64,000 nt of DNA from positions 806,001-870,000 of the forward strand of contig MSJH02000840.1 of the NCBI GenBank assembly GCA_001931875.2. The letters are read 5' to 3'. The position numbers were made by a program, and so were the translations under genes. The notes beneath the pieces are model-generated. The model searched no databases. It was not told the origin of the DNA and was given only the letters and a program-made list of their open reading frames with translations. This document shows positions 1,983 through 32,003 of the stretch, in pieces (position 1 is the stretch's first letter; each line of letters starts with the position of its first letter). This stretch comes from Byssochlamys sp. IMV 00236. Taxonomy: Eukaryota > Ascomycota > Eurotiomycetes > Eurotiales > Thermoascaceae.

Positions 1983-2586
1983 GTTGGTGAGTCTGCGACT
2001 GCTATCTTGCAATGTCTGGTGACGTGGCTTATCGGACAGGCGGTGAAGCAATCAAAGCGGGATCACACCGGAAGATATGAAGTCGGGGGACCAAGTCGCA
2101 ACTGATAGATGATCTGATATATGCGACAAGAATATCGTCAGCGAAACAGCTGGCTGCTGCGCGCCTGGTTGCAAATCTCGGGAAGTTGTAGGGTCGTTGA
2201 TAGCCGGTTGTAGCGCGACGATCGGCGATAAGGCTTTCCAGGCTGGCTGCAAGGACAACGCTTACGCGATCGACTGGCAAATCACAAGTGTATCTAACAA
2301 ACAGAAAATCTGATGGACAGGGCCATGGAGAAGATAGGAGATGGAAGACACAGCAGGGACAGGGGATAAGATATGGGAGGTGATACGATCACGGGGTGGA
2401 GATGCGCGGTTGCGACAGCCGAGGGGAGATCCATCACGTGGTTGCGGCCTGGACCACTGATATAGCGCGATTACTTCACACTCCACGACCGGAAGCGACA
2501 CTGGAGGAGAGCAGACAATGGGCCAGCACGGATGCGATCGCTCAACGTCATGGAATGCCTTTGGCACCTCCCAGGTCTGGCCGGTC
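1983..2586. other. Maf1 upstream region
   Basis: This stretch lies between the Maf1 start and the most distal possible AP-1 sigma exon. It probably holds the Maf1 promoter and the AP-1 sigma 3' flank. The open frames in it overlap each other on the minus strand and have no recognisable content. Confidence 0.4.
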
Positions 2587-2634
2587 TTACCGGATACCCA
2601 ATTCTTTCATGTTCGCAAGGATCTCCTCTGTGTC
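2587..2634 (-). other. Alternative last exon of AP-1 sigma
   Basis: This candidate 48-nt terminal exon is preceded by a pyrimidine-rich CTTTCAG acceptor and encodes DTEEILANMKELGIR then TAA. It is in phase with the donor after LEDME at 3118. The ending EEILANMKELGI is similar in style to the conserved metazoan sigma-1 tail, as I remember it. Whether one or both ends are used cannot be settled from sequence alone. Confidence 0.5.
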
Positions 2635-13432: not shown

Positions 13433-13656
13433 ATTTGGAAGATATCGCCGAATAATCCTCGTTCTCTCTTTGGTGAGACGAATGTGTGGTATCTGTGAGA
13501 AAGCGAGGGAGTAATCAAAGAGGGAGGGGAAATACGTGATTACACTGGGTTATCGTTGTCAATCCCAAAAGCGGCACCACAGATAATCTCTCCCAGACAT
13601 GACTATCAACTTCATACACTAATCTATCCACCTGCATGGCCGAGTTGTACAGGCAC

Positions 13657-13669
13657 CGGAGCTCCTCCG
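13657..13669. promoter_or_regulatory. CGG-N7-CCG candidate activator site
   Basis: The sequence CGGAGCTCCTCCG is an inverted CGG pair with a seven-base spacer. Its right half abuts the shared motif. This is a plausible binuclear zinc-cluster binding site. Confidence 0.4.
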
Positions 13670-13684
13670 CTCACATGACCGGAG
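13667..13684 (-). promoter_or_regulatory. Shared motif copy 1 (BVMO/Rieske)
   Basis: On the minus strand this reads CTCCGGTCATGTGAGCGG. It lies about 235 bp upstream of the BVMO ATG and about 420 bp from the Rieske ATG. Confidence 0.5.
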
Positions 13685-14105
13685 ATAGATCCAGATACGC
13701 CCGTTGACCCATGACGCGGAAACAACGCAAGACACACCCAGGCATATCAATGTATTCTTATTCGTGAAGTCTATATTGACTATCTTGTTTGACAGCTTGT
13801 GATGAGACCTTGGATATGCGGTCCGTCTCCTCCCGTCGCAGGTACTAACTAAGTACTTAGTAGCTTCATGTGTTCCGGGAACGGGGTTGTCCGAGTTGCG
13901 TCCGGGTGGGGCCGGTGAGAGGATACGGCATCTATATCAGCAGTAATGGATGGGACAATGCATTGTAATGATGTGGTAGCTACGGCTATAGTCACCCGGA
14001 TATTTCAATCTCATCGTTTTTATCTATAGTGGCCTTAGTCCTCTCTTCCTGAACAAATTCTCTCTCCAGCTAACCTCTAATCACGTTTATTCTCATCTTT
14101 ATATC

Positions 14106-15424
14106 ATGGTCTCCACGGTAAAATCATTCTTTGGCTATGGAGGGCTTAATATAGGAGAGAAAAGCTCTCCTATAACCCCAGAATCAAGTGATGCACAACT
14201 GAGAGCTCTGCCAGCCTCTTGGTACCGCTCTCCGCAGATGTATGAGCTGGAGAGACGCGCCATATTTTCCAAGAAATGGTTGTTCATCACGCATAAATTG
14301 AGATTCACCAAGCCGGGAGATTTCCTTCGATTTGAAGAAGCAGGCTTTTCTTTTGTCCTCTGTCTTGATCGCGATGGCAACCTGAATGGTTTCCACAACG
14401 TCTGTCGCCATCGGGCGTATCCAGTCGTGACTGAAGACCAAGGGAACGCTAGAATCTTTGCTTGCAAGTACCACGGCTGGTCATATGGGATAAATGGAAA
14501 GCTTGCGAAAGCGCCTCGATTTGAAGACGTCCCAGGCTTCCAAAGGGAGAACCACGGACTGTTGCCAATCCATGTTCACGTCGATGCTTGTGGTTTCGTC
14601 TGGGTGAACCTAGACGCATCATCAACACCGACTGTTGCATGGAATGATGATTTTCTTGGGGTGGATAGACAAGAGAGGTTCCGAAATTTTGATTTCAGCC
14701 AGTACAGATTCGATCACACGTGGGAGATGAAAGGCGACTATAACTGGAAAACCCTCGCCGACAATTACAATGAGTGCTACCATTGCACAGTTGCACATCC
14801 AGATGTTGCGAATATAGCGGATCTCTCGTACTATTATGTCGAACCCAAAGGCGGGCATATCCAGCACTTCTCCAGACCGAAAGCTGGTATTAAAGAGTCC
14901 GAGGATGTCAAGGTTGCCAGCACCTATTATTTCCCAAATTCCTGCATGACTGTTTCGTAAGTAGATGAGGTAGATCATGTTTGTGTTATGTGCACTGACA
15001 ATTATACAGACCGCATTTCTTCTATCTCATGCGATGTGTTCCCACGTCAGTGACAACTGTTTCGATGGAGTATGAAGTGTATCGTCATAAGGACGCTACT
15101 GATGAAGAATTCGAGCACGTCGATTCATTCTTCAAGCGCGTGCTGAATGAAGATAAAATCTTGTGCAACAACACACAGAGAAATTTGAAGGCAGGGGTTT
15201 TCGTTAACGGGCAGCTTCATCCTGAATTAGAAAAGGGTCCTCTATATTTTCAGAGCGTCGTTCGGAAAGTTGTGAAAGAGCATCGGGAACAGGAGGCAGT
15301 AGAGAACCGGGAAATCTGGCCGGCTAGTCAACCCTTGGCAGGACTGCAAGCTACTGATGAAGATATCGCGTTTTGCTCCGGCCTTGCTTGTGAGCCAGAG
15401 AAAGCTGCGCAGCTGGCCTGGTAG
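14106..15424 (+). CDS. Rieske non-haem iron oxygenase, choline-monooxygenase-like
   Basis: Two exons (14106-14956 and 15010-15424) encode 421 residues. The Rieske [2Fe-2S] ligands are C100, H102, C120 and H123 (CRHRAYPV and CKYHGWSYG). The catalytic iron site is NYNECYHCTVAHPD, with candidate ligands H226 and H231. This is the alpha-subunit architecture of the choline monooxygenase / glycine betaine or carnitine oxygenase group, which hydroxylates or demethylates quaternary amines. No reductase partner is encoded nearby, so electrons must come from elsewhere. The intron (GTAAGT..ACAG) is phase 2 and restores a TCA codon in SPHFFYLMRC. The link to quaternary amines is supported only by family resemblance and by the sarcosine-oxidase-like gene 7 kb away. 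An aromatic substrate is also possible. Confidence 0.88.
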
Positions 15425-15944
15425 CCACGAAGTCGAATAATAAAATCTGTTGTGCTTGGTAACATATCGACCGTCAAGGACTTTTAATCACATTTATAAC
15501 TGGTTTCTCATAGCCTGGAGATGTAGGTATAATAGCGAAGAGTACAAAATTCCATCGATCAAGCAGCATGCAGAATAGGTGTAGATGCAGCTGTAGTGTT
15601 GACTACTGGTAAGTTAGGTAATTCTCCGGTAAATACCGTATCTGAGCCGACGATGCCGTATCGTAAGTGAGCGGCCCAGCAAGTCCACCGTTCCAAGGTC
15701 GCCAACCTCCGCATGCACTTCCTCTGTCAGATTGCCTCCTCTAAAAATGTCCTGTACAAGCAGTACAGCTTCGAGCTTGATTTTATCAATAATCCGTTGA
15801 TTCAACTCGCTATGGCTCGCCTCAAGTTGATTACGTGAACCGCATTGACAGGCGATCCTAAGGTAGTACCTACCAACCCCGCCCGCCAACCTACAACGCG
15901 ATAACAAGATAGTGTTGATTAGAGAAGGATCATGATCGGCCATC
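15425..15944. promoter_or_regulatory. Promoter region of the Zn2Cys6 regulator
   Basis: No gene is supported here; an antisense frame at 15614-15982 overlaps the regulator's first exon and has no domain. At 15627-15638 lies CGGTAAATACCG, a perfect palindrome with CGG and CCG six bases apart, about 300 bp ahead of the ATG. This is a candidate site for zinc-cluster autoregulation. Confidence 0.4.
15627..15638. promoter_or_regulatory. CGG-N6-CCG palindrome before the regulator
   Basis: CGGTAAATACCG is a perfect 12-bp palindrome, consistent with a zinc-cluster dimer site. Confidence 0.35.
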
Positions 15945-18389
15945 ATGTCATTATCAAATAGATCCCGCGTAGCCAAACGCATGCACCAGGCCTGTGAGAA
16001 TTGCAGGTGAGAAGATTAAATATATCTGCAGCCATGGATGTCCACTAATCCATACAGGAGGAAGAAGACGCGGTGTCCAGGGGAACGACCATCTTGCTCA
16101 ACCTGCACAAGACTGTATCAAGTTTGCAATTATGCAGGCACCAGCTCTCAATCTGACCAGCGGCAACCGTTGGGTGGCCAGCTAGACATGGTATGTCTGC
16201 TAATGTCATCTAAAGAACGAACTGACTCGGACAAGGAAGGGCGGCTGGCACAGCTGGAGGAAAAGATGCAGCTCATGTTAGAGAGAGCAATGTATGTGAA
16301 CTATAACTCTATCTATATTGAACATATAGGTAACCATAATACAGCCCACAGCCTTCGGTTCGAGGTAGAACACCTCAATCAAACACAAGGAGATCGTTCA
16401 GTCATCAGACAACACCGGAATCACCAGCGCACCAAATGCCTGGAACTGCGGCATCATCAAAGTAAGATATCTCTCAATAAGATATTTATCGAAGACTCAT
16501 GACTGTAGTTCCGATTCGTTACCCCCAAGAGACGTTGTCTTTGACGTGGTGCAACAATACTTTACATACTGTCATCGACAACCGCTATGGCTCTTCGACG
16601 ATAATGATATCCCATCTCTTGTCAACTGCACCGAAGAGCTTATATTTTCGTTACTGGCACTTGCGGCTCGATACTCAAATCATGCATACTTTGATGGACA
16701 GTCTCAGGTATTCGCTCATAAATACGGCGAGATCGCGAGAGGCCTTATCATGTTCAGGATTGCCCAGGGTACAGTCAAACTTACAACCATCCAGAGCCTC
16801 TGTCTGCTTGCTCTAGCTAATTTTGTTGGTGAGTTATTTTGGCGAAACTCGGCACGGAAAGTGCTGACAGTTTACAGCGTTGGACACGCATCTGGCGTGG
16901 CTTCATATCGACCTCGTTAACTCTCTGATTCGAAACTCGAATATGGACATCGAGACAAATCAAGAAGATGCTCAATCCATACTCGAATCTAAGAGACGAG
17001 TGTACTACAGCATCCACCTGTTGAACCAACTCTACTCACGAAGGTCTATGGCCTTGAATATGTTGGAGGACATAAACAAACCGAAGTACGTTGGATCGAA
17101 ACAAGATCCGTTCTACGAATCCAGTAAACCTCCACCCTTGACACCCAGAGAGACATTAGGTGAACACGAATCTCAACGGGGAGGGATATGGACATATATG
17201 GTTCAGCAGTCATCATTATGGAAGGAGGTACGGGATTACGTCGCACGCTGTGCTGATGGCAACTTGAAGCCCCCTTGGTCGCCAGATTCAGGTTACGCCG
17301 TTATTGGAGCTCATCTAATGGACCTTGAGACGAATTTTCCGACACATTATCGATACGACGCGGCTCGCTTCTCTGAGCGTTCTCGAGATGAACTCCATCG
17401 CAACCGGGAATTCTGGAGTCCGTGGCTGTACTTGCAATTCGCATATCATGCCATTCATAGCGTCCTAAACCATCCCTTCTTATATTCGGCACGCCCGCAT
17501 CAATCTATCCAGCTTGCAGTACCCAATACCTTCTGGAAGACGTCTTCAGAGCTGGCCCTGCTTCATTCGACGTGGATTGTCCGATTGATTGAAATGGTAA
17601 CTGAAAAGGAATACCCAGTGTCCGATCCATTCATTGCACATACTGCTGCGGTTTCGGCAACTATACACCTTTATTACTGTCGTGCAGCCGATAGCCGTGT
17701 CCGGACCTCGGCACAGACAAAGTTATCAAAGTGCATGACATTTATAAGCGACTTGGGCATTGTCTGGCCACTCTGCCATTCGATGGTTCGTATACCACAC
17801 AACCCTCTAGACCTGACAAAACTGATACAAGATATAGTATGAACGCTTAGACACCCTTATTCAATCAGCGTTAGGTTCCGGCGGGCAGTCTGCAGCACAC
17901 GATGCTAGCTGTAGGACTGTGTCGATCAAGACAGCATTGATGTGGGATATTCTTGATTATACATGCCCTCATAGAGGCTCTCACAGACCTGGCAGGGGAC
18001 TTTTCGATCCATCACTTGTACAAGACCAGAATAACGAATCTGACGATGAACAAACTGTCGAGACACAGATATTCCATCGACCTACAGCCGAGGCTGACAC
18101 TTCCAATGGGGGACAAGAGCTGCCCCCTTATTCTGATCGCGCCATGTCCCGAAACCGTGCTCGGGCAAATCACACAAGCAGTAACTCAGAAAACACGGAA
18201 GATAGACTATCTAGACAGCCGTCAGTAGCCCAACATCCGTCGCAGCTTCATCAGTCGGATATTGCAAGCTGGCAAGGACCGGCATTCTTGGGGAATGTCT
18301 CGATCATGGATATCACACATGACCCTTTCTTCCCGCTACAGGATCACTCTAGTCCGTATCTAGGGTTTTGGGACACAGGAAATTTATAG
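15945..18389 (+). CDS. Zn2Cys6 transcription factor of the oxygenase block
   Basis: The gene has about seven exons. The start at 15945 gives MSLSNRSRVAKRMHQACENC; an intron then splits the zinc cluster, which continues RRKKTRCPGERPSCSTCTRL and ends with C in YQVCNYA. All six cysteines are present with the normal spacing. A short coiled segment (GRLAQLEEKMQLMLERAM) follows, then the fungal-specific regulatory domain (YCHRQPLWLFDDND, LLALAARYSNHAYF, WLHIDLVNSL, RRVYYSIHLLNQLYSRR). A poorly conserved Ser/Asn-rich tail ends DTGNL. Donors include GTGAGA, GTATGT, GTATGT, GTAAGA, GTGAGT and a weaker GTTCGT. Position beside the BVMO/Rieske pair suggests it is their activator. The stop lies only 50 bp from the convergent cupin gene. 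The C-terminal intron is the least certain. Confidence 0.85.
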
Positions 18390-18439
18390 TACCAGGCAGA
18401 TAGAATATATGCACTAATAACTATCCATATTACGAATTT

Positions 18440-19122
18440 TCATGAAGACTTCCACAAGGTCACCAGTGCACCATCCTTCCCTAACACAGGATCATGGTTC
18501 GGTATGGGGACCGAAGATATTTCATTTCGAAGACCCTCTACATCGAGTGGATCCTTTCCAAGCTCATTGCGCCAACGCGGGCACTCCTGCGATAGTCAAT
18601 CAGTCGCGATGTACAGTACATGAAAGGTAAGCAGTGCCCTCGAGCCATAGTCGTTACGAACCTTGGGGTAAACGCCGATGTACCGATAATCCTTGGTGCT
18701 CTGAAGACAACAATGCGCAGTTCCCGCCGGCAGGACGATTACATCTCCAGCATAGACGTCGACCTCAAGACCTCCATCTTCATCGCTCTGTCCGCAGCCT
18801 AAAAGAAGTCTGGATTCACCCTGAAATACACCTATCGTGTCCCATCATAAGCAAGCATTCGACACCATTGTACATACATACAAAAACAGACAGACAGACA
18901 GACAGACATACCATAACACTCATGTGTATTCGGATGGAAATGTCTCACAGGGATATGGCCCCATACCCCGCGTTTCTCCCACTCATTCGCCTCTAGGAAC
19001 TCTGTTGTTTTCTCCTCCGATAAGGGCAACGGTAACGCATCGCGGTAAATGAGGACCGGGAATGAACTATTCAATGCATACTTGTTTGGCGGGATGACGT
19101 GTTGTTCTGGAATCAACCCCAT
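18440..19122 (-). CDS. Single-domain cupin protein
   Basis: Three exons encode about 175 residues. Cupin motif 1 is HFHPNTHECYGVFQG, matching HxHx4Ex6G and split by the first intron. Motif 2 is GDVIVLPAGTAHCCLQ, matching Gx5PxGx2H. The metal ligands expected from the fold (two His and Glu in motif 1, His in motif 2) are therefore present. The N-terminus MGLIPEQHVIPPNKYALNSS and tail ending LVTLWKSS resemble the YjlB-type small cupins of bacteria and fungi, whose reaction is unknown. The first intron donor GTATGT runs straight into a (GTCT)n tract. The second intron starts GTTCGT. The gene is convergent with the regulator and carries the shared promoter motif about 360 bp upstream. A dioxygenase or isomerase role is possible but not shown. 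Confidence 0.85.
18887..18908. repeat. (CAGA)n microsatellite at a splice donor
   Basis: About five and a half CAGA units (GTCT on the coding strand) sit within ten bases of the 5' splice site of the first cupin intron. Slippage here would change intron length but not coding sequence. Confidence 0.8.
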
Positions 19123-20128
19123 GATGGAGTGGTTGGTTATACGTTGTTTTTTTACGACCCTAAATTCTGCAATCGCAATGCATGGATCACGATAATAATA
19201 AATAGCTAGATGCGATACAATCTGGTCTGTTGATGCGGGGGTCGACGCTGATCCACCGGGTACGAATCCCAGATTAGGAAAGCGTATCCTAATGAGTTAG
19301 AGACCGGTCCAGGAGGATTCGAGACTCAACTGATGCTCCACAAGATATATGTATATGACGTGTCTTTAGGGTAACTGCTCGTGTGACTCAAAGGAAGGTC
19401 TCGATATTCGAGATCGTGGAGTATTTTGAGTGTTGAGTGTTTCTTATCAAGCATCTTGCAGCGGAGATTGTCCCGGAGGCCGGTCACATGAGCGCAGGTC
19501 TCGGGACACGGACTGCGTGAATACATATCCAATCATTGTATTGAGAACTAGAGAGCGTTGATAGTTATGGTGATTGGTTCGATGTATGATCTCTTGTTCG
19601 GGGTGAAGTTGACTTATTGTTCTATCTGAAGGGCTTAAACTGAAGATGTTCAGATGTTAAGCAGCTTGTATTTCTAACGAGGGAAAGCTTAAATAAAGCT
19701 TTATCTACATCGCTACTTACATGCTCTAGAAAACTCACTATCCGGAATCAGATATCTGCGTGCTGTTCCATAACCTTAGTGTAATAAAGTTTTAATCATA
19801 TCAGGACCCAAGATAAATAAACAAGGACAGGGGCAGTTCTCGATATTTATATCTGAGAGCCCACCTGACGTTAGGAGGCAATTAAAAGCTCAAACCTGGT
19901 AGGATATTGACATGGGAGGTGCGGCTATGTAAACGTATTCTAGACTGCTCATCTAATAGCACTGATAACAGAAATAACAAATCATAATCTGATTATTCAA
20001 TATCTGCTCTATCTTGGGAGACGCCATAGTGGTGGGAATCACCCATTGAATGGCGACTAGATATATCCAAGATATGTCAAACCACCCACTATACCTGCTG
20101 CTGCCTGCGTACGGCGAGGATATTGTCT
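19123..20128. other. Cupin upstream region
   Basis: This 1-kb AT-rich stretch holds the cupin promoter, including one shared motif copy at 19480-19495. A tRNA B-box-like string near 19258 has no cloverleaf around it. I see no gene. Confidence 0.4.
19480..19495 (+). promoter_or_regulatory. Shared motif copy 2 (cupin)
   Basis: The sequence is CCGGTCACATGAGCGC, about 360 bp upstream of the cupin ATG at 19122. Confidence 0.5.
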
Positions 20129-20890
20129 CTATTCATGGTCCTTGAGACTTTTCAAGAACGTAATAACTGGTTCATTGTTTGCGTAAGTAGCGATACTTAA
20201 TGCAGTCTTACGGTACGGATCCTGTATCCAAGGATCGCCCCCTTTCTCCACTAGGAATCTTACACATTCCAAAGAGCCCTGTAAAGCGGCGAAATGGAGC
20301 GGTGTCCCAAGTCCAGCCCTGTAGTTATGTGCGAAATCTCGAGGCGAATTTTCATCGAGAAGCTTGTTGATAATGGTCGCATTGAAATTCGGGTTCTTGT
20401 CATATATATATTTCAGGACTTCAAGGTTGTCTGGATGTGATCTCAACGAAGCATAATGCAGCAGTTGTCCATGCTCAATTGATCCACCGTGTTGGAAGAG
20501 GAGTTGAATTACTTCAAACGACGCGTGTTGAACAGCACAGGACAGTGGAGTGTAATCTCGGATGGGGCATCTTTTGTCTGGACTGGCGCCACGGTCCAAA
20601 AACCATCTCAGCAGCTTGATGTCGTCGAATGTATACCTGTATTTCATTAGATCCGCCAAGCTGCAAATCGAGAGAGTTGCTGCTTACACAAGGCACGAGG
20701 GCGTTAGACTATCGACGTGTGTATCGATATCCCAACCGCGCTGAATGAAATCGTCAACGATCTTGTAACGTTTCATTCGTGTAGCAAGGGCAAAGTGGTT
20801 CATGCTCATGGGGACATCGCGATCAAGCAATTCGATGGCGTCATCATCTCTGCCATCGGTGATTGAGTTATAAAGATCCTCCATTTGCAC
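20129..20890 (-). CDS. Ankyrin-repeat protein
   Basis: Two exons encode about 240 residues. Exon 1 starts MQMEDLYNSITDGRDDDAIE. A short intron (GTAAGC..TTTGCAG) then joins TPSCLV to LADLMKYRYTFDDIKLL. Ankyrin-type helices recur: LLRWFLDRGASPD, YTPLSCAVQHASFEVIQLLFQHGG, GTPLHFAALQGSLECVRFLVEKGGDPW and KTALSIATYANNEPVITFL. No other domain, signal peptide or membrane segment is seen, so it is probably a small cytosolic or nuclear binding protein. Partners are unknown. It lies inside the accessory block and has a copy of the shared motif about 150 bp upstream, which is the only reason to link it with the metabolic genes. Ankyrin genes are abundant and variable in Aspergillus, so it could equally be a bystander. 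Confidence 0.8.
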
Positions 20891-21700
20891 TGAAAGTAGT
20901 AGAATTTGGATGTATCTGGATAAAGTTCGAGAGCTTGGGAACGGCTGGCGGTTGTACGCTCAGCAGCTTCTACCATCGACTCATATCCAGGAAGTGATCA
21001 AGGCGATCAGCTAAGTAAGTACTTCAACCGTGTTAGTTCGGTCACATGAGACCTGGAGATCACAAATTGACGAGCAAAGCCTCAGTGCCCATTTTCCAGA
21101 TCCTTTTAGATTAGGATCCAGTTCCACTTCGGATGTCCTGGGCGCTACTATTATCATTTTCCCGACTGTAGCTTCAACCATACTCTCCGATTAAGCCACT
21201 GTTCGTAGTTCGGGCAAGCCACTGGGCACAATAAGATGACAGGGCTTGTGAGGGTGAAAAACGGACACTATCATAGATTGCGGAACCAGAAAAGTGAAAA
21301 GTCACATAGGCGCAGCGCGCTTAAGTCCATATCCAGTTGTTGTGGACCTTTCGATTGACCAGAGATGCTGCAGTCAGTTTCCGATAGTTGAATCCACAGC
21401 ATGACCTTGCACCGTCAGTGTGTGTTCTTAGTCCACAGGCAGGTCAGAAACAGGGGCTTAAAATTTCACTACAGGTTAGAATCGGACAACTGTCTGCTAC
21501 TAAGTGATACTGTACTACAATAGAAGACTACCTACTCAAAAAGCGAGTGAAGGATCTAGTCAGGACCTCACAATTGAAGAAGAAATAATAGAAGATGTCT
21601 ATATTGAATGAGAAGGTTTGGTTGTTGTACTGATCCCCACGCTTAGGCGTCTTGGAAAGTATATATCTTCTCTCATACATGCCCACTAGATGTGCATTCT
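20891..21700. other. Ankyrin upstream and oxidase downstream region
   Basis: No gene is supported. It contains shared motif copy 3 at 21039-21050. Confidence 0.4.
21039..21050 (+). promoter_or_regulatory. Shared motif copy 3 (ankyrin)
   Basis: The sequence is CGGTCACATGAG, about 150 bp upstream of the ankyrin ATG. The left flank is T rather than C. Confidence 0.45.
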
Positions 21701-23031
21701 CTACAACTTCGCTTGCTCTTGTGCAGTCAACAGCCTGCGCGCAGGACCGCGTCGACTTCCGTCATTGCAAACCATCGGTCCTGTAGTCTGACTGCTCTTT
21801 TCCAGTCTCCATTTCTGTCTCACCTCCGGGGACGCTTTATCCTCGAAGCAGTCGGCAATATACTGTCCAAGAATAGGAAGGAACTTGAATCCACTGGACG
21901 AACGTTAGGTCTTGGCTGTGGTGATGGGCATCCATGTACTTACTGGCCGGCACCTCCAATTGCAATAAACAGACCCTTGATTGTCGGGTGGTTGTCAACC
22001 ACAAAGTCGCCTTGGGGAGTGTCTGTATACCAACATAACCTCCGGCGCACCCACGGCTTATCTGCTAGCTTGGGAAGGATTTGGCGGAGCCCTTCACGCA
22101 GAGCTTCGTCTGCATCGTCGGGTAGATAGGAAGACGCAGCATTATTGACATCGCGTTTCGGAGAGGAAATAGTCCGCCCATCCACTTGAATAGATGTATC
22201 GAATCCGTGACTGTGGCGGGCTACCTTCAGAAGGTTTGTGTGTGGAGTTGGAGGAAACACGAAGAATCCAGAGGTCATATTGATAACCACTGGCATTCGA
22301 GAAATCTCTGCCGCTTCTTCTGGTGTCAATTGGATAAACCCAACCGGTTGGGCTGATGATGAGACTGCATGAGTTAGGTCCAGGTATTGATTAGACCAAG
22401 CTCCCGTCGCGAGAATCACATTCGAGCTCTCAATTGGTGGTCCGTTTGCAACGTGAACACCGGTTACTTTGGAATCATCGATCCTGAGCGATGTCATTGT
22501 CCCCCGAGGGCCTGTGACGAACGATACTCCAAGTTCACTGCATCTCGCAGCCAGCGCAGTGATGGCACCCGCTGCATCCGCCCAGCCAGCGTTTGGATTT
22601 ATATATCCGGTGAATTCTTGCTTCACATCTTTTAGATGCGGGAATTCGTCGATAAGTTGCTGCGTAGTTTGGAAGTCCTTGAAAGTTTGCCCCTGGCTGC
22701 GCAGCAAACCTTTAAGCTTCTCCAAAAATGCATCGCTTTTCTCCTCTGAGGTCAAAACAAATCCAGTGTTATAATAGTAAGGATGAAATGGACCCGATCC
22801 CCAGCTTTGCACAGCTTCTCGCGCCAGCTTCATGTAAAACGGATCGGAATAGTCATAGCGCACGATGCGAGAGATATCGACGCTACTACCATCTGGAACT
22901 GGTGGTAGCATCCGATCGAGTACGGTCACATTCTTGTATCCCCGCTGACATAGCTCCAGGGCTGTAGAGAGGCCGAAAACCCCTGCTCCAACTATAACAA
23001 TGGGATCTTCCTTGGAAGTTGTTGTACTCAT
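21701..23031 (-). CDS. Sarcosine-oxidase-like FAD amine oxidase, peroxisomal
   Basis: Two exons (21944-23031 and 21701-21893, with a 50-nt intron between them) encode 426 residues. The N-terminal FAD-binding motif is IVIVGAGVFGLSTALEL. The DAO/monomeric sarcosine oxidase signatures continue with SSVDISRIVRYDYSDPFYM, PNAGWADAAGAITALAARC and RRRLCWYTDTPQGDFVVD. Across the intron the sequence reads IAIGGAGHGFKFLPILGQYI, the conserved C-terminal FAD block. The last residues are QAKL, a peroxisome-targeting PTS1 tripeptide (AKL). Family members oxidise N-methyl or secondary amino acids (sarcosine, pipecolate, fructosyl amino acids) to imines with release of H2O2, which fits peroxisomal location. 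The exact substrate cannot be told from sequence. Shared motif copy 4 lies about 125-140 bp upstream. Confidence 0.88.
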
Positions 23032-23063
23032 AGTGAATATTATGACTGATAATTGTTTTCAGT

Positions 23064-23078
23064 AAAAAAAAAAAAAAA
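23064..23078. repeat. Poly-A tract ahead of the oxidase ATG
   Basis: Fifteen consecutive A on the plus strand (T on the coding strand) lie about 35 bp upstream of the oxidase ATG. This may be a promoter T-tract or part of the 5' leader. Confidence 0.7.
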
Positions 23079-23154
23079 GGCCGAGAAGTATTTATCTCAT
23101 CTCTCGTGTGTTTGTTGACTGCTTTAACGCTCTGCCACACCGCGTCGTCCAAGG

Positions 23155-23170
23155 CCGATCATGTGAGCGG
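23155..23170 (+). promoter_or_regulatory. Shared motif copy 4 (sarcosine oxidase)
   Basis: The sequence is CCGATCATGTGAGCGG, with one mismatch (A for G) in the CGG. It lies about 125-140 bp upstream of the oxidase ATG at 23031. Confidence 0.5.
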
Positions 23171-23787
23171 GATTCGGGGGAGATCGAAAGTACTCGTGGC
23201 TGCATTGATTGTTACCTGCACAACTTGGCTTATCTTAGGTAGGCTAAGGATATCGCATAGTACATACTTACAGTGGCTCATACAGAGACTTTGCAGTTTC
23301 CAGACTAGCAACAGCATGAGGTTGTTTACGAATGGTAATTGCGGAGAATCCCAATATACCAATCAACTCGTATGTCTTGCTCACCCACTCACTCGATTCT
23401 AGAGATACAAAGGGCTACTTACGTTTGTCGCAACTACTGCATGAACCGGTCAACTATACCAATAAGTGCGTCTGAACTTCCACTCAGCTGGTACTCGCAG
23501 TCGGTTAGCATCCCTGGCTTAACTGGCGCCATATTTTTTTTGGGGGGACAAGCGCTCATGACGTCTTGTCCTGTCAGGTTCCTGATATTGAACTCTCCAC
23601 AATGTTCAGTAGCCACGTTCATCAAAGAAGAAACCGTCATTAAAAAGTGAGAGAAACAAAAACAGAAAACATACAACAGCAGGGATTTTCTGGCGGTCTT
23701 GAACCTTTTATTAAACTACTATCATTTTCGAGGAACCAGGAAATTGCTATTTCCATTTCAGGGCTATCTATAGACTGTTGGACGACC

Positions 23788-24894
23788 CTAGTGATTGCCA
23801 GACGACCATTCTGTATCACGAAATGGATCGAAGGGTTCACTGACCTCTATCGAGCCCAACCTTAGGGCTGTAGACGGTGTCTCCTCGAGCGGGGGGTCCT
23901 CCATTGGTCGCTTCCGTTCTGATGCAGACTGTCTCGTAGCAACCGGTGAGAGCATTGCAGCATGGTCCATTATCTTGTGCAGATGCGAAATCACCGTAAT
24001 AGCCCCTTCAGGATTGTCCCATCTGGTCTCCAGCCTCGACCACTAGATATAAAAAGCATGGTTAATCCAACGCTTTAGCATGTCACTAGGCAAAGGAATG
24101 TCTTACTTTTGAATTGTTATCTAAACGCATGAAGATGAACCGATAGCTGTCTGTGGCAACTCCATATATCGTGGTATCAGATCTACCCGCTTTCTTCCTG
24201 GCTGAGTGGATTATAGCTAACTAATAATCAGCGAACCTGGTCAAGGACGTGATAATGGGATAACAACTCACCCATGTAGGTCAATGTCTGCCATTCTCCA
24301 GTGCGATCACCCTCGTGAGTTTTGGCCTCCACCACGACCATATTACTCTCGGGCTCGTCAACTGTTTCGTACCACAGCGAATAATCGGCCCTACCATTGA
24401 GGATGATCTCTCTATTCTTGTGCATGACCGGGCATTTGAGCGGTGTCTCAAATTGTAGATGGAGGGATTTGTACGAGGCAACGCTCTCCCTAGATGCTCC
24501 CCAGGTCTGGCCCCATTCCCCCTTCTTTTTCGCCGCAAGAGTAGTCATTAAGATAGCGTCGAGACGGGTACGGACAAGGGCTTCATTCTCCCGTGATCCT
24601 GCCATGCAGAGGTTATAGTCGTCTAGTATGGACTCTACAAATGTTTAGCACATAAACAAAACTGCATAAGGTGAGGGTCTCACTCAAATACTGCGGCACA
24701 GTCTTCCGCTCGTGTGGTTGGAGCGACCAGTCGAAAGATAAGTCGTCCGTCAGACGGAAAAACTCACGCACTTCCGAGTGCGTCATGTCAGCGACTGGTT
24801 TGGTTTTTGCGCTGAATGGTAACAAGAAATCTCTCAGAGATGAACGAATGCGCTGTGGGACCCTGCGCAGGACATCCTCCATCCATTCCTCCAT
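23788..24894 (-). CDS. PD-(D/E)XK nuclease-like protein, copy A (catalytic residues present)
   Basis: Four exons (24684-24894, 24272-24634, 24107-24216, 23788-24042) encode 312 residues with all phases consistent. The core reads ILNGRADYSLWYE, then SNMVVVEAKTHEGD. This places a candidate active site at D154, E173 and K175, the D..ExK pattern of the PD-(D/E)XK superfamily. An upstream helix, ALVRTRLDAILMTTLAAKKK, and a downstream block, YMAIIHSARKKAGR then IYGVATDSYRFIFMRLDN, are shared with two neighbouring copies. The last exon is a charged, probably disordered tail. This family is common and expanded in filamentous ascomycetes, and no function is established. It could act on nucleic acid, or be a remnant of a mobile or conflict system. 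It is the only one of the three local copies with the full ExK motif. Confidence 0.75.
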
Positions 24895-25749
24895 TTTAAA
24901 AGCGGTTGAAGATCACCAGGACAGTCACATCAGTCTGGAGAGGACAGGCAGGGAGGAAGCGTTGAACCAGAAGACCCGTTAAAATAGGCGCGCCCTCAGA
25001 AACGACAGAATCGCCTCGATATCAGATGAACGACGCGTCGTCAGGGTAGGACTAAGTCTCCCGACTATGCCTGTCTAATAGGAAGACCTACCAACCTGAT
25101 CCTGAATTACATACTTCACATCGGATATGTTCTAGAACGGCAAGATATTGCTCTGTCATATAGGTTTCTAAGGTGGAGCTATCTGGGCAGAAATTCCCTG
25201 CGAGGGAAAACGATCGACGCTACAATGTAGGTGTTTTGGACAGCTGATGTCGTAGAGTCGAACACGTCGTTAAGACAGAATAGAGTCTCTGACGACGAAC
25301 GTCCTCGGAGACAAGATATCTGAACTGATCGTGGGCTTCAGACCTTACGATCGGGCGACATTGGCTGGTCAAAGTCTAGCTTTGGCATGCAAGAATCCAC
25401 AACGGATCTATCCGTTATGCAGATCCTCGCGTGCCATAAGATCGACCGTACGACGGAGGCTGGCTAGACAACCTGCGGCGCTAGGTCGCTCGATCAGTGG
25501 TAACAGCGACAGGTTCAGTAGATCTACGACGTATATACACGCGCAAGGTAAACACCAGTCAGGGACAACCAGCTTCCTCTGGTAGGAGAGAATGTATATT
25601 CTTCGGGATATCCCTTCCCTTACTACTATGAATCCGTGATAGAGCTGTGCTGTATCGTGGTTGGACGTTGGGAAGCTTTGGACTGATCAACTTCGGAGTT
25701 AAATTATCCTGGAAAGAGGAAACAGTTCAAGATAGCCAATGAACGAACG
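24895..25749. other. Intergenic stretch
   Basis: No supported gene. A plus-strand frame at 25331-25585 has no domain or start context. Confidence 0.35.
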
Positions 25750-26030
25750 CTACCCAAGTGCAGAAAAGGCTTCCTTGAGTCCTTTAGACCGATATTTATC
25801 TCTGGTGGAATCCCCTGAAGAGTAATGGTAGGAGAAACCTGTACATAAATCTCCAGTTGTGTGATTTTTCGAAACGGACAGATCTCTCGTATTTTGGGAT
25901 TTAATTCGCCACTCGTACCATGCACTCTGGCCAAAGTTACATGGACCATTCCCAGACCATATATATATACCTATAGGCAACGGAGAAGCGTGTAGGCCAT
26001 CCATGTATACAACTGTGCATAGTGGCAATC
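25750..26030 (-). CDS. Possible small hypothetical gene, incomplete model
   Basis: A minus-strand frame reads like protein: IYIWSGNGPCNFGQSAWYEW, then KNHTTGDLCTG and RDKYRSKGLKEAFSALG before a stop at 25750. A 24-nt in-frame segment inside it could be a tiny intron or coding. An acceptor near 26030 suggests a 5' exon. The frame at 26096-26290 (MYILGLIAVYSVLSRN) is a candidate, but its phase does not match the simplest donor. I do not recognise a family. Cysteines and a possible hydrophobic start would suit a small secreted protein. It may also be non-coding. Confidence 0.25.
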
Positions 26031-26635
26031 TTTAAATTACAGTAAGTTCCACAGTGCGGCTGGATATCTCGTGATGCAAAAAAGTGGACAAATGTTCAAT
26101 TGGGTTTATGTTTACCTGTTTGCATCCTAGGGTGGCCAAAGTTGTGCTCATAGAGGTGGAGAAGCGTAGAAGTCAGCCTGCGAGATTCAAAGCTGGTCGC
26201 ATACATGAAGTTGGGACTTTTTCTTGTGCTTTTTAATTTGATGTTCCGGCTCAGAACGGAGTATACAGCAATTAGACCTAGTATATACATGTATTGAGGC
26301 TAGGGTATTGCCGTAATTTGAAAGGAATGTTGTTCAGTTATTGTGATACTTAACCATCAAGGTACAGCAGCTGGACCGTACATGGCAAGAAGTATATACG
26401 CACTATTTCCCTTCGAGCCATGGTAACCTTGGTTATATTGGGTCACCAAGATGTTTCCGTGTCGACTACGGCTTTCTTCTCTGCCTGAAAACAAAACTTC
26501 AGAGACACTCCCAAAATGGATTATAAGTCTCTCACTAGAAAGCTGTAACTTATTTTGAAAGACTACAGAGAACACCACCATGGAAATCCTCATGATGTTT
26601 CTGACTGGACAACGCTTAAATGTGCCAAACTTCTC

Positions 26636-27808
26636 CTATTCTCTCTTACCTGTTAACACCGAAGGTTTAATTGTCGCATGTAATGACTTATCACCCCAGT
26701 CGGCATCATCGATAAAACAGCAAGCAATTTCACTTGCAGTTTTGTCTTCCTCCCAGTGAGATCCATAATTAGTCTGCATAAGATGAATGGCGCCCTCCAC
26801 GATGCGAGTTATATATGTGTATATCTCCCGCTCTGATGTTGTCCAGTTCAGTACTCGGACCGTATACTGTCGTTAGTATTAGCCATACTTAAACTAGAGA
26901 CCGGGAATGATTATCGAGTGCACTTACGCGACCATATTCATCCAAGTACACAAAAGCCCAGTCAGATTTATCAGAATAAATTCCATAGAGGGCAGAATTC
27001 CTCCCTGCTCTCTTGCGAGCACCGTGGATTGCACCTACACGTAGTCAGTAATCTCTAGGGGCATCAAATAGGCTACGACAGATCCGTTTGTATTCCTTAC
27101 CCATATAAGAAAACAATATTGGAAGATCAATATCTCCCTGAGTTGGCGCGTGGAAAATTATCAAATTCATTTCAAGCTCTTCCCTGTCTCCGTACCAGAG
27201 CACATAGTCCATTATGCCACTCATTCTGTACTTTTTATCTCTGCAGCGAAAGCACGTGCGGACTATCTGGCCACGTTTAATTTGTATCTGGGTCAAGGGA
27301 TCGTTATAGGGCCGGTAGTCTTCGTCTTCTGGAAGAGGTGCGGCGACTCTGCGGGCCTCGCGCTTCTTCGCGTGGTTGATTGCAAGAGTGATGATCATGC
27401 TGACCTGCGACGGAATCAACATATTCTTGAAGTTAAACGAAGTATCAAAATCATCTAGCATTGGTTCTGGGCATATATTAGTATTATTATTATTAGGTTC
27501 TTTTTTTTTTCGTATTCTGGAGGAGTCAAACAAAGATAATCATTACCAAGAAAGGTAGGTATTTCGTATATTTCATCCTCAGCGAGAGCCCACTGCGTAT
27601 GGTCTTCGTATCTGCCGGGACGAATACCGAAGAAATCTATGACATTGAAAAATTGTTGTTTGTCCTTGCAGAGCTTCTCAATCTGGGCATATTGACTTTC
27701 CTCCACCGATGGGCGGGAGGAGGTGGCACGGGAAATCAATCTGGCGTGACGCTCTAGCCAGTAATATGAATTGTGGATAATGGCTCTGGCATTCATAATG
27801 GTATTCAT
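26636..27808 (-). CDS. PD-(D/E)XK nuclease-like protein, copy B (active site lost)
   Basis: Four exons (27547-27808, 27101-27466, 26928-27034, 26636-26866) encode 321 residues in consistent phase. It is a paralogue of copy A. It shares AEDEIYEIPTFL, an equivalent helix (IITLAINHAKKREARR), GIMDYVLWYGD, and YMGAIHGARKRAGRNSALYG after the third block. Where copy A has VVVEAK, this copy has LIIFHAP, so the expected Glu and Lys are gone while the Asp-Tyr pair remains. The protein is otherwise intact, with no premature stop, so it is likely expressed but catalytically dead. The start is taken at 27808 (MNTIMNARAIIHN); a longer N-terminus is possible. The final codons GGTAAGAGAGAATAG also look like a splice donor, so another 3' exon cannot be excluded. 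Confidence 0.7.
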
Positions 27809-28072
27809 GATGGGCAGTGACAATTTAGTATTAGTATAAGGCAGTAGATGGTGTAAAGGAACGGGAAGAATTCCTAACACAGCGAAATAGCTGGTATTAA
27901 ATCAAGGAAGGCCATTCCGGACCACATTGGATGTTTCCATGGTATAAGACTCGGACATGCGGCTACCGAAAAGGATAAATTGGTGCAGGCATCATCGCCC
28001 TGTCATTTTCTTCTCAACGTAGCTGAATATTCAAACCACCGCGCTTCTCCAAGTTCACCGACTCTCATCATT

Positions 28073-28941
28073 ATGGGTCCACTGAACATCGCTAATAAGT
28101 CCCATTTCGACGAAGACGATGCTATAGTAGTAACTGGAGAGAATGTCAACTCTATATTCGGCCTCCATATAGCTCAAAACCAGTGGTCTTATTGGGATTT
28201 GGCAGAAGAAGAAATTATATCTATTCCGCGTCATCTTCGTTAGTATATCATATCCTTGATTTAGGCGATCAGTGTTTGACCAAGTCGGCGAAGAATTAAT
28301 CTTGCAGGAAACTGAAATTGAGAAATGGTACTCAGATTCCGTTCTTCGAACACGCCTGGAGGCGATCTTTGCGACTACTTTGGCGTCAAGGAAACGCGAT
28401 GTTCTCTCGGAGTCCACGAGTTCGGCGAAATCTACTCTATACCAAACCGCACGTTGGGTTTCTGGAGTGCCCTTCTCGGCTAAAGGCGGTTATAGGGGTC
28501 GGTGCATGAAAATAAATACTCTGATCGACTATGCATTATGCCATGGACAACTGGAGAAGGTACAAGATATCAAACTACTTGTCAACGTGGTGGATTCGCG
28601 AGATAATAAATGTGCTAGAACAAGTCTGGGTGAGTTCTCAAGCTATGTGTTACGGCTTTAACTGTTGCAATCGACTGAATTCACTGATAATTCTATGCCA
28701 GCCTTGATCAATTGGGTTCGTGAGGAAAAGGGAAAAGACAGAATTCCTCTATTTGGAATCTCTGTGGATGTCGATAACTTTATGTTTATACGGCTAAATA
28801 TCGACTATTCAGTAAGATACGCCATACTCGCGACTTCTGACGCCTATCTCCCTTTACCATAGTACGTTGATAACTGACAAGGAGCTCTCGTGTTTAGTAT
28901 ACCGTACACTACATGTCATTGAGCACGGGCGCAAGACGTAA
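28073..28941 (+). CDS. PD-(D/E)XK nuclease-like protein, copy C (degenerate, short)
   Basis: I place four exons (28073-28238, 28273-28629, 28702-28811, 28882-28941), about 230 residues. Shared elements are LAEEEIISIPRHL, VLRTRLEAIFATTLASRKR, LIDYALCHGQ and PLFGISVDVDNFMFIRLNID. The active-site strand reads DIKLLVNVVDS, so the ExK pair is missing. The first intron is only 34 nt, at the lower limit for fungi, and the last acceptor is ambiguous. An earlier AG at 28862 would end the protein at 28877, whereas the AG at 28881 restores ELSCLVYRTLHVIEHG, similar to the end of copy B. Copy C is divergent from copy B across 264 bp. It may be a pseudogene in the making. Confidence 0.55.
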
Positions 28942-29108
28942 CCGGGTCATATCCCTTATTTCCCGCTTCATCGATCACGCTATATGCTCTACATGAGATG
29001 TATGTTTGTCTTTGGATAGCAGACCAGCAGATGTAGCTCTGCGTGATACATGGGTGCAGAATCTAGTTCTAATTCTTCTTGTCCGGGAGACTTTGATTCT
29101 GTAGCCAC

Positions 29109-29422
29109 CATAGGGAAGCCTGGATAGAAGTAGTCGGTGTTACCAAATTCGACCGGAGCGCTGAATGGCTTTACATTATATAGACTATGTCTCTAGACAT
29201 CATAGTATCATTGTCGGCGTACAAATTAAACGCCAGGTAATCTGCAATCATCTGTTACACAAGTTCCCGCATGGGATTGGATCGAACCTACTAGATTGCT
29301 AGATTACTAGGATCTAGATTCTTTGGGTGCTAGAGATAAATATGGGATCAAATCCTCCCTAGACCTAGAGTCAAGCAAGCAGTTCAGATTCTCCTTCCGT
29401 GCTATTAAAGATTCGACAATGA
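29109..29422 (+). repeat. Left arm of a long inverted repeat
   Basis: This roughly 310-bp arm matches the reverse complement of 30708-31035 along its length. Shared anchors include CATAGGGAAGCCTG, ACTAGGATCTAGATTCTTTG and ATCCTCCCTAGACCTAGAGT. Many differences are C/T or G/A transitions (for example CCCGCATGGGATTGG against CCCATATGGAATTGG). That pattern is expected of repeat-induced point mutation. Confidence 0.8.
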
Positions 29423-30383
29423 TAAGGCTAATAGATATGGCCAAGCTCAAGAGAAAAGTTAAAGGAAGTGGTAAAAAGCTTGCTCGTATTGAGTAGGTAT
29501 CTATGACATCCCCCTTTATTGATACATAAATGGCAGCCCACGAGGGACCCACTAAAGAATGATCATCTAGTGAATTGAAAAGATAACCGTTTTTCGCGAT
29601 ATTAAGCCGCTTCTCTCGCTCCAAGAGCACAAGTAATAATGTCGAGTGTGATAACTCCGTTGCATGACTCTTGAACCCTAGTTACAAAAAGATCGATGTC
29701 AATCCTTTACTACACAATTTCGAGATTGATATATTGCTTTGATTATGTCGCGGTATGCTTATATTGGACTCCTGCCTGCCTTGCACGATCATAGCTATTT
29801 CTGGGATGTATACAAGCTGACACTATGTTAGAATGGTTCTTATTGCAGCACGATTCTGAATCACTGGAGCATGAAGGAGCCTTTTCCAGTTAAGGTTACA
29901 CTGCGGAGTTCTGCACACGGGGAATTGATTTTAAGGGAGGAATCTCTGAACGGATTAAAATAGGCTCGATGGGATTGTATCCCCAGCATCTATACAATGA
30001 AAGATAACGAATATGTATATACATACTTATTCAGTTAGTCACATTCAATATTCTCAGGAGTATCCGATGCCATAGGGGGTTTGAATGTTCTTTCCCTCTC
30101 TTCTAGATGTCGCTAATATTGACACGGGCAGGCCTCGCATACTATTAAGCCCTGTAAGATTATACCTGTTGGAAAGCACGACGAAAATGTTACCAGTAAA
30201 TGTAGTCAGACTGAAGAAAGGTAGGTAGAAATGCTTAATACTTACCAGACGAGTAGATTTTGGAACCCTCCTTTCCGTAATTCAGTATTGCTGGAGACTA
30301 GGTTCCCAGTCCCCAAAAAGCTTGGAAATTTCGATTTCATATCCCAACTTGACTATATCATCTCTTTGAAGTGTTTAACCATC
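29423..30383. other. Spacer between the left arm and the 5S gene
   Basis: AT-rich, with no supported ORF or transposase-like sequence. Confidence 0.4.
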
Positions 30384-30502
30384 ACATACGACCATAGGGT
30401 GTGGAAAACAGGGCTTCCCGTCCGCTCAGCCGTACTTAAGCCACACGCCGGCAGGTTAGTAGTTGGGTGGGTGACCACCAGCGAATCCCTGCTGTTGTAT
30501 GT
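30384..30502 (+). rRNA. 5S ribosomal RNA
   Basis: The 119-nt sequence begins ACATACGACCATAGGGTGTG and ends CCCTGCTGTTGTATGT. Its two ends pair (ACATACGAC with GTTGTATGT) to make helix I. Internal regions include AGCCGTACTTAAGCC and the control region GGTTAGTAGTTGGGTGGGTG. It is followed by T-rich runs (GTTTTTATC then nine T) that serve as the RNA polymerase III terminator. Fungal 5S genes are dispersed single copies, as here. It lies between the two arms of a long inverted repeat. One base (GCCGGC rather than GCCGGG, as I recall the usual fungal sequence) may be a variant. Confidence 0.92.
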
Positions 30503-30522
30503 TTTTATCTTTTTTTTTGCTA
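30503..30522 (+). terminator. Pol III terminator of the 5S gene
   Basis: A T-rich run of five T, then a nine-T tract, lies directly after the 5S 3' end. Confidence 0.7.
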
Positions 30523-30707
30523 TATAAATAGCTACTAACTCTATAGGTAATACTCGACTGCATTCAACTGCCACAAAAGAAGATCCCGCGAGAATGTAGT
30601 GCACACTCTTGTCAATTGCTCGACTCAGTCTCTCCGCGTCCCTGTTATATCGGAGATCTCCTTTTCGAATTAGTGATGCTTTTTGACAACCTGGGAGAAT
30701 GTGTGTG

Positions 30708-31035
30708 ATAATTGTCGAATCCTTTAGCACGGAAGCAAGATCTGACCTGATCGACTTGAATTGCTTGCTTGACTCTAGGTCTAGGGAGGATTTGATCCAA
30801 TATTTATCTCTAGTATACAAAGAATCTAGATCCTAGTAATCTAGTAATCTAGGAGGTTCGATCCAATTCCATATGGGAACTTTATATAAGAGATGATAGT
30901 AGATTATATAGCGTTTGCTTTATATACCAATAATAAGACTTTGATATTTAGAGATGTAGTCTATATAATATAAAGCCATTGAGCGCCCTGGCCGAAATTG
31001 GTAACACCGCCTACTTCTATTCAGGCTTCCCTATG
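30708..31035 (-). repeat. Right arm of the long inverted repeat
   Basis: This is the inverted partner of 29109-29422. It is more AT-rich than the left arm, so it appears to have suffered more transitions. Part of it (around 30785-30835) recurs near 60.45 kb. No target-site duplication could be assigned with confidence. Confidence 0.8.
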
Positions 31036-32003
31036 CTCTCCACATCAGCTATCTACAGTCTATGCTTGGTAAATTTCATTGATGGCCGCGATAAGTATGA
31101 GAAATTTGTTTGTTATACAAATAGTAAGTGACTGAAACGCAATTCTCCGATTTTACCTCTGCTAATCCAAATTCATTACAATCTGATTGTATCCATAGGA
31201 ACAATGTTTATTGTGCTTTTGCTAGGCGAAATATCTTCTATTTATCCTGCAGCTGGTGGCATGAACATCCTTTCCCCTCCTCCTCATCGATCCTAGTATA
31301 CGAGGACTAACCCATTTGAACCTATCATTTTAACCCCCTCAGGTTAGTTTCACCGGGCTTTCCAACCCGTGAAGTATGGCATTGTTGTCCCCTCTCCATA
31401 TAGTTAGCAGGCCGGTCATGTGACCGGAGTCGATTGCCTGTCGAGCGATGGCTTTTTTATCCCAGTCATTTCTCAATAATATTGATATCTAGTCTGTTTT
31501 CGTCTTAAACTCCGTCGTATTCATCAGCCTTATCATCAAATTTGGCCAATTGCATGCTGCACTGAATTGGTTTGTGACCATTATTCCGCCGGTCTTTCGT
31601 CGTCCCTGCTTCACGCCCACCAATTGGTGGCTCTAAACTGGGATATCGCACGCGACCAATTTCCCCATGTCTGATATCTGCCAGCCTGAAGGGTGAGAGG
31701 TCGTAACACTTCAACGAAGTATTGATAGGCTATCCCCGACATCTTCCCAGCTTGATGCTCATCCCCGCGAGAGGAGAGGATTTGTATCGAGATGGCTAGC
31801 ATCGGCCATGGCTTCGAACTATTCCTTATCGGGAAAACCTACAACCCACGTGCGACAATGTCCTTCTTGTCTGGAGCGATAAGAGGGGTTTGAGCGAACA
31901 TGTATTTAGAGATCTGGTCAGAACTGTTGCTGCTATATTTCTGGTGAGTCTGCCTCTTTTCTTGTGCTCTTGGTCATTTCCATTGCATTTTTCCAACGTC
32001 AGC
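31036..32003. other. MFS gene upstream region
   Basis: No gene is supported. It carries shared motif copy 5 at 31412-31427, about 580 bp ahead of the MFS start. Confidence 0.4.
31412..31427. promoter_or_regulatory. Shared motif copy 5 (MFS), perfect palindrome
   Basis: CCGGTCATGTGACCGG is a near-perfect 16-bp palindrome with CGG and CCG eight bases apart around TCATGTGA. Confidence 0.5.

Follow-up and report, generated by a model that had tools for sequence, protein, structure and literature searches.

The window analysed here is a stretch of 64,000 nucleotides of DNA from Byssochlamys sp. IMV 00236 (contig C837, positions 806001-870000, in an assembly of 47.4 Mb and 840 contigs). It contains a block of accessory genes bordered by widely conserved ones: Maf1 and a clathrin adaptor at one end, and indoleamine dioxygenase, BAR/SH3, Vps23 and STE2 at the other. 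Several promoters in this block share a 16-letter dyad element, and it is this element, together with its predicted binder and the pathway that it may control, with which we are concerned. The genes of the block, as spliced by hand and in window coordinates, are as follows:

11358..13432, minus strand: Baeyer-Villiger monooxygenase (BVMO)/FMO-like monooxygenase, its first FAD-binding motif apparently disrupted in the assembly
14106..15424, plus strand: Rieske non-heme iron oxygenase of 421 aa, carnitine/glycine betaine monooxygenase-like
15945..18389, plus strand: Zn2Cys6 regulator with a Fungal_trans domain, seven exons, 715 aa, the proposed binder of the sites
18440..19122, minus strand: small cupin protein of 175 aa
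20129..20884, minus strand: ankyrin-repeat protein of 242 aa
21701..23031, minus strand: DAO-family oxidase (fructosyl amine / monomeric sarcosine oxidase group) of 426 aa, ending in AKL
32004..33810, plus strand: major facilitator superfamily (MFS) transporter of 520 aa, SV2/SLC22-like

The sites and half-sites in the promoters of these genes are:

13667..13682: strong site CCGCTCACATGACCGG, no mismatch to CCGGTCAYRTGAGCGG, on the minus strand, in a shared promoter with the BVMO ATG 234 bp away and the Rieske ATG 423 bp away
19480..19495: strong site CCGGTCACATGAGCGC, one mismatch to CCGGTCAYRTGAGCGG, 357 bp ahead of the cupin start codon
21038..21053: partial site TCGGTCACATGAGACC, the core with one half-site, 153 bp ahead of the ankyrin start codon
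23155..23170: strong site CCGATCATGTGAGCGG, one mismatch to CCGGTCAYRTGAGCGG, 123 bp ahead of the start codon of the DAO-family oxidase
31412..31427: strong site CCGGTCATGTGACCGG, one mismatch to CCGGTCAYRTGAGCGG on each strand, 576 bp ahead of the MFS start codon
15668..15674: TGAGCGG, a half-site standing alone in the promoter of the regulator
15933..15939: TGATCGG, a second isolated half-site, immediately ahead of the regulator start codon

An earlier reading of the letters by themselves (the sequence-only reading) had described five near-identical sites. Four of these, at 13667, 19480, 23155 and 31412, are strong, while the fifth, at 21038, is partial and carries four mismatches to CCGNTCAYRTGANCGG. 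By the gene models all five are intergenic, as that reading had said; two of them, at 13667 and 23155, lie within stop-to-stop frames (105 and 118 codons) that we regard as chance frames. When the window was scanned for CCGGTCAYRTGAGCGG with up to three mismatches, where both strands of a palindrome-like place each give a row, 10 rows were returned against 0.89 expected, and none of 100 shuffles reached 10. An additional match with two mismatches, at 24428-24443, lies within an open reading frame (ORF). The same family of sites emerged when no pattern was supplied: a search of 13001-32000 for 16-mers with copies within two mismatches, low-complexity words excluded, produced two four-copy families, one being this motif and the other an AT-rich family around ATATTTATCTCT, two copies of which sit in the arms of an inverted repeat. 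Dinucleotide shuffles reached a four-copy family in none of 30 and none of 148 trials, a figure that somewhat understates the background of real DNA, because real DNA holds that second four-copy family.

The sites are alike in sequence and their surroundings are not. Across seven sites, two of them on other contigs (C555 and C669, described below), the 40-bp flanks on each side show a mean identity of 30% over the 21 pairs and a highest of 41%, compared with a mean of 78% and a lowest of 56% for the site cores over the same pairs. Copies of a mobile repeat would not have such unrelated flanks, and a repeat-derived origin was rejected on this ground.

The six strong sites (four from the block, one each from C555 and C669, the ankyrin site excluded) give 12 half-sites, whose consensus is RTGANCGG, with counts out of 12, outward from the centre, of R 11, T 12, G 12, A 11, any letter, C 12, G 12 and G 11. 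The two centre letters differ among the strong sites, being CA, TG, CT or CG. The conserved element is, at the level of sequence, an everted pair of such half-sites, CCGNTCA-NN-TGANCGG, or CCG-N10-CGG. Three of the five block sites and both outside sites (C555, C669) keep the CCG-N10-CGG arrangement intact; the cupin site departs from it by one letter, and in the ankyrin site it is broken. The MFS site had been called a perfect palindrome, which it is not: its arms CCGGTCA and TGACCGG pair, and the centre TG breaks the dyad, leaving one mismatch on each strand. The core had also been described as E-box-like and flanked by CGG triplets. The triplets stand, as the outer parts of the dyad, and the E-box need not be a separate element, because CCGNTCA-NN-TGANCGG contains CANNTG automatically; since the dyad accounts for the likeness, no second factor has to be invoked. 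Zn2Cys6 dimers contact CGG triplets that are paired at a rigid spacing.

In the whole assembly the close forms of the element are rare. All counts from the genome search are lower bounds, and the control was the pattern written backwards. The exact form of CCGNTCAYRTGANCGG occurs in at least 3 places, with all those listed inside the block. With one mismatch allowed there are at least 14 places, against 8 for the control; four lie in the block and 10 elsewhere, and the excess of 6 corresponds to the four block sites together with those on C555 and C669, the remaining 8 equalling the control. With the centre left free, exact CCGNTCANNTGANCGG is found in at least 5 places against 1 for the control, namely three in the block, one on C555 and one at C812:537932, which lies within an ORF adjoining a PAP1-type bZIP gene. 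At the other one-mismatch places, on C124, C233, C624, C711, C800, C809, C812 (264141) and C837 (562444), no recognisable target was seen in 3-kb loci, the Pfam scan among these eight being confined to three ORFs on C711. On that contig (C711:30501-36500), a one-mismatch site, CCGATCACATGACAGG, lies close to where an MFS gene begins, and genes for a Zn2Cys6 regulator and a sulfatase adjoin; this may be an extra target or a chance match.

The two places outside the block that account for the rest of the excess constitute an independent test, because neither was used to make the pattern. The site at C555:246828 is 296 bp upstream of a paralogue of the block's Rieske gene (C555:244001-250500, local 1358-2603, minus strand), in which pieces of the catalytic domain are retained. 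The site at C669:15176 is 109 bp upstream of a gene for dimethylglycine oxidase, which in turn adjoins paralogues of both the regulator (37%) and the Rieske oxygenase (54%). The C669 oxidase carries DAO, FAO_M and GCV_T domains and scores 1043 bits over 688 residues used against 1pj5, which we take to be a bacterial dimethylglycine oxidase, and 231 against the mitochondrial 5l46, a pattern that suggests acquisition by horizontal transfer. A mandelate racemase-type gene adjoins the Rieske-type gene on C555. The sequence-only reading had predicted a regulon of about 20 kb; in agreement with that prediction, the exact form is listed nowhere outside the block, which also contains a Zn2Cys6 gene, but the predicted extent has to be changed in that the regulon may reach these two outside loci.

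The regulator encoded at 15945-18389 has a canonical zinc cluster and a regulatory domain. The zinc cluster, CX2CX6CX5-12CX2CX6-8C, is present as CENCRRKKTRCPGERPSCSTCTRLYQVC (Pfam Zn_clus, 31.7 bits against a cutoff of 21), and the Fungal_trans domain PF04082 scores 28.1 bits against a cutoff of 23. Residues 11-82 align to Gal4 5-74, a segment that covers the Gal4 dimerisation helix, and a dimerisation coiled coil behind the zinc cluster is a candidate feature of the regulator. A P. variotii protein of equal length, 715 aa, is 99% identical to the regulator, which makes P. variotii or a very near relative the source of the DNA. Among the best 120 of its 169 relatives, seven are gene models that also contain a Rieske-type oxygenase, with the zinc-cluster string KTRC missing in five of the seven, and two further relatives, P0063 and P0101, are fused with a DAO-family oxidase; these fusion models are probably annotation errors that reveal adjacency. 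The gene numbers in other fungi agree with such a neighbourhood. Scytalidium lignicola has a BVMO (g9795), a Rieske oxygenase with the regulator (g9796) and an MFS transporter (g9799, the closest foreign MFS at 77%) under closely spaced numbers and with an equal contig size of 61,996; for Rasamsonia byssochlamydoides the numbers are 6883 (regulator) and 6885 (BVMO), and in Rhinocladiella mackenziei the regulator/BVMO numbers are 03241/03243 and 05103/05102. To judge by these models, BVMO, Rieske oxygenase and regulator, with the MFS transporter added in Scytalidium, appear to be clustered in other fungi as well.

Among solved structures, the window Rieske protein is closest to the bacterial carnitine monooxygenase CntA (6y8j), and in NCBIfam the nearest model is GbcA, at 127.7 bits against an equivalog cutoff of 670; at a score so far below the cutoff, an outright assignment as GbcA was rejected. 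The window oxidase could likewise not be called a sarcosine oxidase outright, as fructosyl amine oxidases score higher. Its C-terminal AKL is, we assume, a possible peroxisomal signal. In an excerpt on the A. nidulans choline-betaine-glycine route, which likewise includes a dimethylglycine oxidase gene, that gene (AN8654) is up-regulated on choline, and the excerpt names no regulator or site (PMC4830055). The gene families, the C669 dimethylglycine oxidase and this choline response together favour demethylation of a betaine-like compound, and the gene set as a whole resembles a route for taking up a quaternary ammonium or betaine-like compound and removing its N-methyl groups by oxidation.

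The sites, their rarity, their promoter positions, their coincidence with paralogues at the outside loci and the families of the genes are, in our judgement, probably best explained if the sites are operators of a pathway-specific Zn2Cys6 activator, for which the 15945-18389 protein would be the likeliest binder, serving a betaine-like pathway and reaching the two outside loci. In the mechanism that we infer from sequence, for binder, activation, inducer and substrate alike, a homodimer of this regulator would bind the everted pair with one zinc cluster on each CGG, a coiled coil would set the 10-bp gap between the triplets, and either the zinc cluster or the linker next to it would read the inner TGA. 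An inducer would then lead to joint activation of the BVMO/Rieske pair, the cupin gene, the DAO-family oxidase and the MFS transporter, and either the block regulator or its C669 paralogue would also act on the C669 dimethylglycine oxidase and the C555 Rieske-type gene. The promoter of the regulator holds two half-sites in 521 bp, against 0.25 expected, which is at most a hint that it may regulate itself.

Several results weigh against this account. One concerns the C555 target, whose Rieske-type gene is without the segment of the iron-sulphur ligands: the alignment jumps residues 99-152, about 50 residues, and Pfam finds the catalytic domain only, with no match to the Rieske domain, a gap that direct alignment confirms. 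It may be a decayed gene that has kept its promoter site, or else an oxygenase-like protein of another function, and because of it we have lowered our confidence both in the account as a whole and in a regulon of three loci. No regulator paralogue is among those listed for C555. The genome scan against a control, which had been proposed as the check on the motif, gives its excess for the exact and one-mismatch forms and none when CCGGTCAYRTGAGCGG is allowed up to two mismatches over the whole genome (20 + 24 rows, against 22 + 22 for the control), so that the regulon claim is restricted to close matches. The 12-mer CGGTCACATGAG, common to the cupin and ankyrin sites, occurs in at least 5 places, including two in the block; the control gives 3, and about 5.6 are expected by arithmetic on both strands. 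Being near chance level, it lends the ankyrin site alone no strong support. We therefore rejected that site as the equal of the others, and the ankyrin gene is at most a candidate member of the cluster. No site within two mismatches of CCGNTCANNTGANCGG was found in the DNA fetched around the C669 Rieske gene, around the Rieske-like pieces on C646 (two non-colinear matches) or around the regulator paralogue on C809, and C820, home of an MFS paralogue, has no place among the listed one-mismatch matches to CCGNTCAYRTGANCGG. The regulator's own promoter has lone half-sites only and no paired site. Finally, the window oxidase has fructosyl amine oxidases as its nearest relatives, followed by monomeric sarcosine oxidases, which makes the substrate uncertain.

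If the CANNTG core were instead an E-box for a basic helix-loop-helix (bHLH) factor of the SREBP or Ino2/4 kind, the CCG/CGG flanks would be incidental or the contact of a second protein. Several fungal bHLH proteins favour TCACATGA-like sites, and CANNTG is present in every site, the partial one included. However, TCAYRTGA by itself shows no enrichment in the window: it occurs at 11 places (five of them the block sites) against 6.5 expected, and 6 of 100 shuffles have as many. The exact flanked form, by contrast, is listed nowhere outside the block. CANNTG comes automatically with the dyad, the outer CGG is retained in 11 of the 12 strong half-sites, and the regulator gene inside the block encodes a Zn2Cys6 protein. 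The E-box was rejected as the primary element because the core is not enriched in the window independently of its flanks, and we regard a bHLH explanation as unlikely. A different Zn2Cys6 protein encoded elsewhere, for example the paralogue on C669 or that on C809, might instead own the sites. Zn2Cys6 paralogues are numerous, and C555 has a site and no listed regulator paralogue; the stretch RRKKTRCPGE is identical in the block regulator and the C669 paralogue, which makes cross-recognition by the latter plausible. Against such an owner, the sites are most concentrated around the 15945-18389 gene and the pairing of regulator and Rieske oxygenase recurs in other fungi, and we give this possibility the same low standing as a bHLH factor.

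Chance similarity among a few 16-mers, or a repeat relic, seems very improbable to us. The pattern was chosen after the sites had been seen, the fifth site is weak, the AT-rich 16-mer family also reaches four copies, and the genome excess is lost at two mismatches, all of which a chance origin would accommodate. It would not so readily yield a four-copy family that none of 178 shuffles produced, nor flanks so unrelated, nor the sites on C555 and C669, which took no part in making the pattern and lie just upstream of paralogous or pathway-related genes.

As an operator of the block's own regulator, the element would belong to a kind of regulon that is already known, the pathway-specific Zn2Cys6 type. 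Gal4, Put3 and Ppr1 are among the matches of the regulator N-terminus, and together with Leu3 and with TerR of the A. terreus terrein cluster they likewise offer a Zn2Cys6 and Fungal_trans architecture, an in-cluster regulator and CGG dyads of fixed spacing. The sites of Gal4, Put3 and Ppr1 are inverted, CGG-Nx-CCG, whereas the block site is everted, CCG-N10-CGG, and keeps the inner TGA/TCA. An excerpt on TerR presents it as the regulator of the terrein cluster (PMC4360782). A literature text search for CCGN10CGG, CCG-N10-CGG and CCG N10 CGG returned no match, and no literature on this cluster or site was found, as judged by title and abstract start; the layout was thus not met by the strings tried. 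The window Rieske protein and the C669 dimethylglycine oxidase resemble bacterial quaternary-amine demethylation, with CntA, GbcA and the dimethylglycine and sarcosine oxidases. Unlike the bacterial pathway, the system here is fungal, has a Zn2Cys6 regulator adjacent, adds a BVMO, a cupin and an MFS transporter, and includes an oxidase of the fructosyl amine oxidase-like kind. There may be a conserved, Rieske-tied family of fungal Zn2Cys6 proteins that recognises a so far undescribed everted site (two RTGANCGG half-sites around a 2-bp centre) and governs one regulon over three unlinked loci, namely this block, the cluster with the dimethylglycine oxidase and the further Rieske-type gene, for import and N-demethylation of a betaine-like compound; it would be the first regulon of such a pathway in fungi to have a defined site; we hold this broader claim tentatively, at somewhat below even chances.

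Other features of the locus deserve description. The disruption of the BVMO lies in its N-terminal FAD-binding motif (window 13090-13432, minus strand), and by eye no canonical splicing was seen that preserves the motif; an intact BVMO, P0121, 96% identical, is present in P. variotii, and the disruption is possibly a strain pseudogene or an assembly error. Between the DAO-family oxidase and MFS genes, at 29100-31044, there is an element of about 1.9 kb with terminal inverted repeats of 163 nt (79%) and 126 nt (92%), and inside it a 5S rRNA gene at 30384-30503 (84.6 bits). At 23800-24900 on the minus strand, spliced ORFs carry the stretch VVVEAKT, which strikes us as reminiscent of PD-(D/E)XK-type proteins; no Pfam match was found in the scanned part of these ORFs. 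Further ORFs lie at 26700-27810 and 28070-28870. Elsewhere in the assembly, loci on C124, C7 and C233 have a low GC content (0.37, 0.38 and 0.41, respectively) on foreign-looking contigs. An assembly of 47 Mb is large for P. variotii, and it may include a contaminant.

What had been an unannotated accessory cluster can now be described as a small circuit, with a regulator, a probable operator and seven predicted target promoters at three loci, one of these targets depending on the partial site and one standing before a possibly decayed gene. Regulator, inducer and substrate thereby become directly testable, and the site offers a handle for finding the regulon in other moulds. If the betaine reading is true, the circuit would locate in filamentous fungi the control of quaternary-amine demethylation, which forms one step of choline use and osmolyte turnover.

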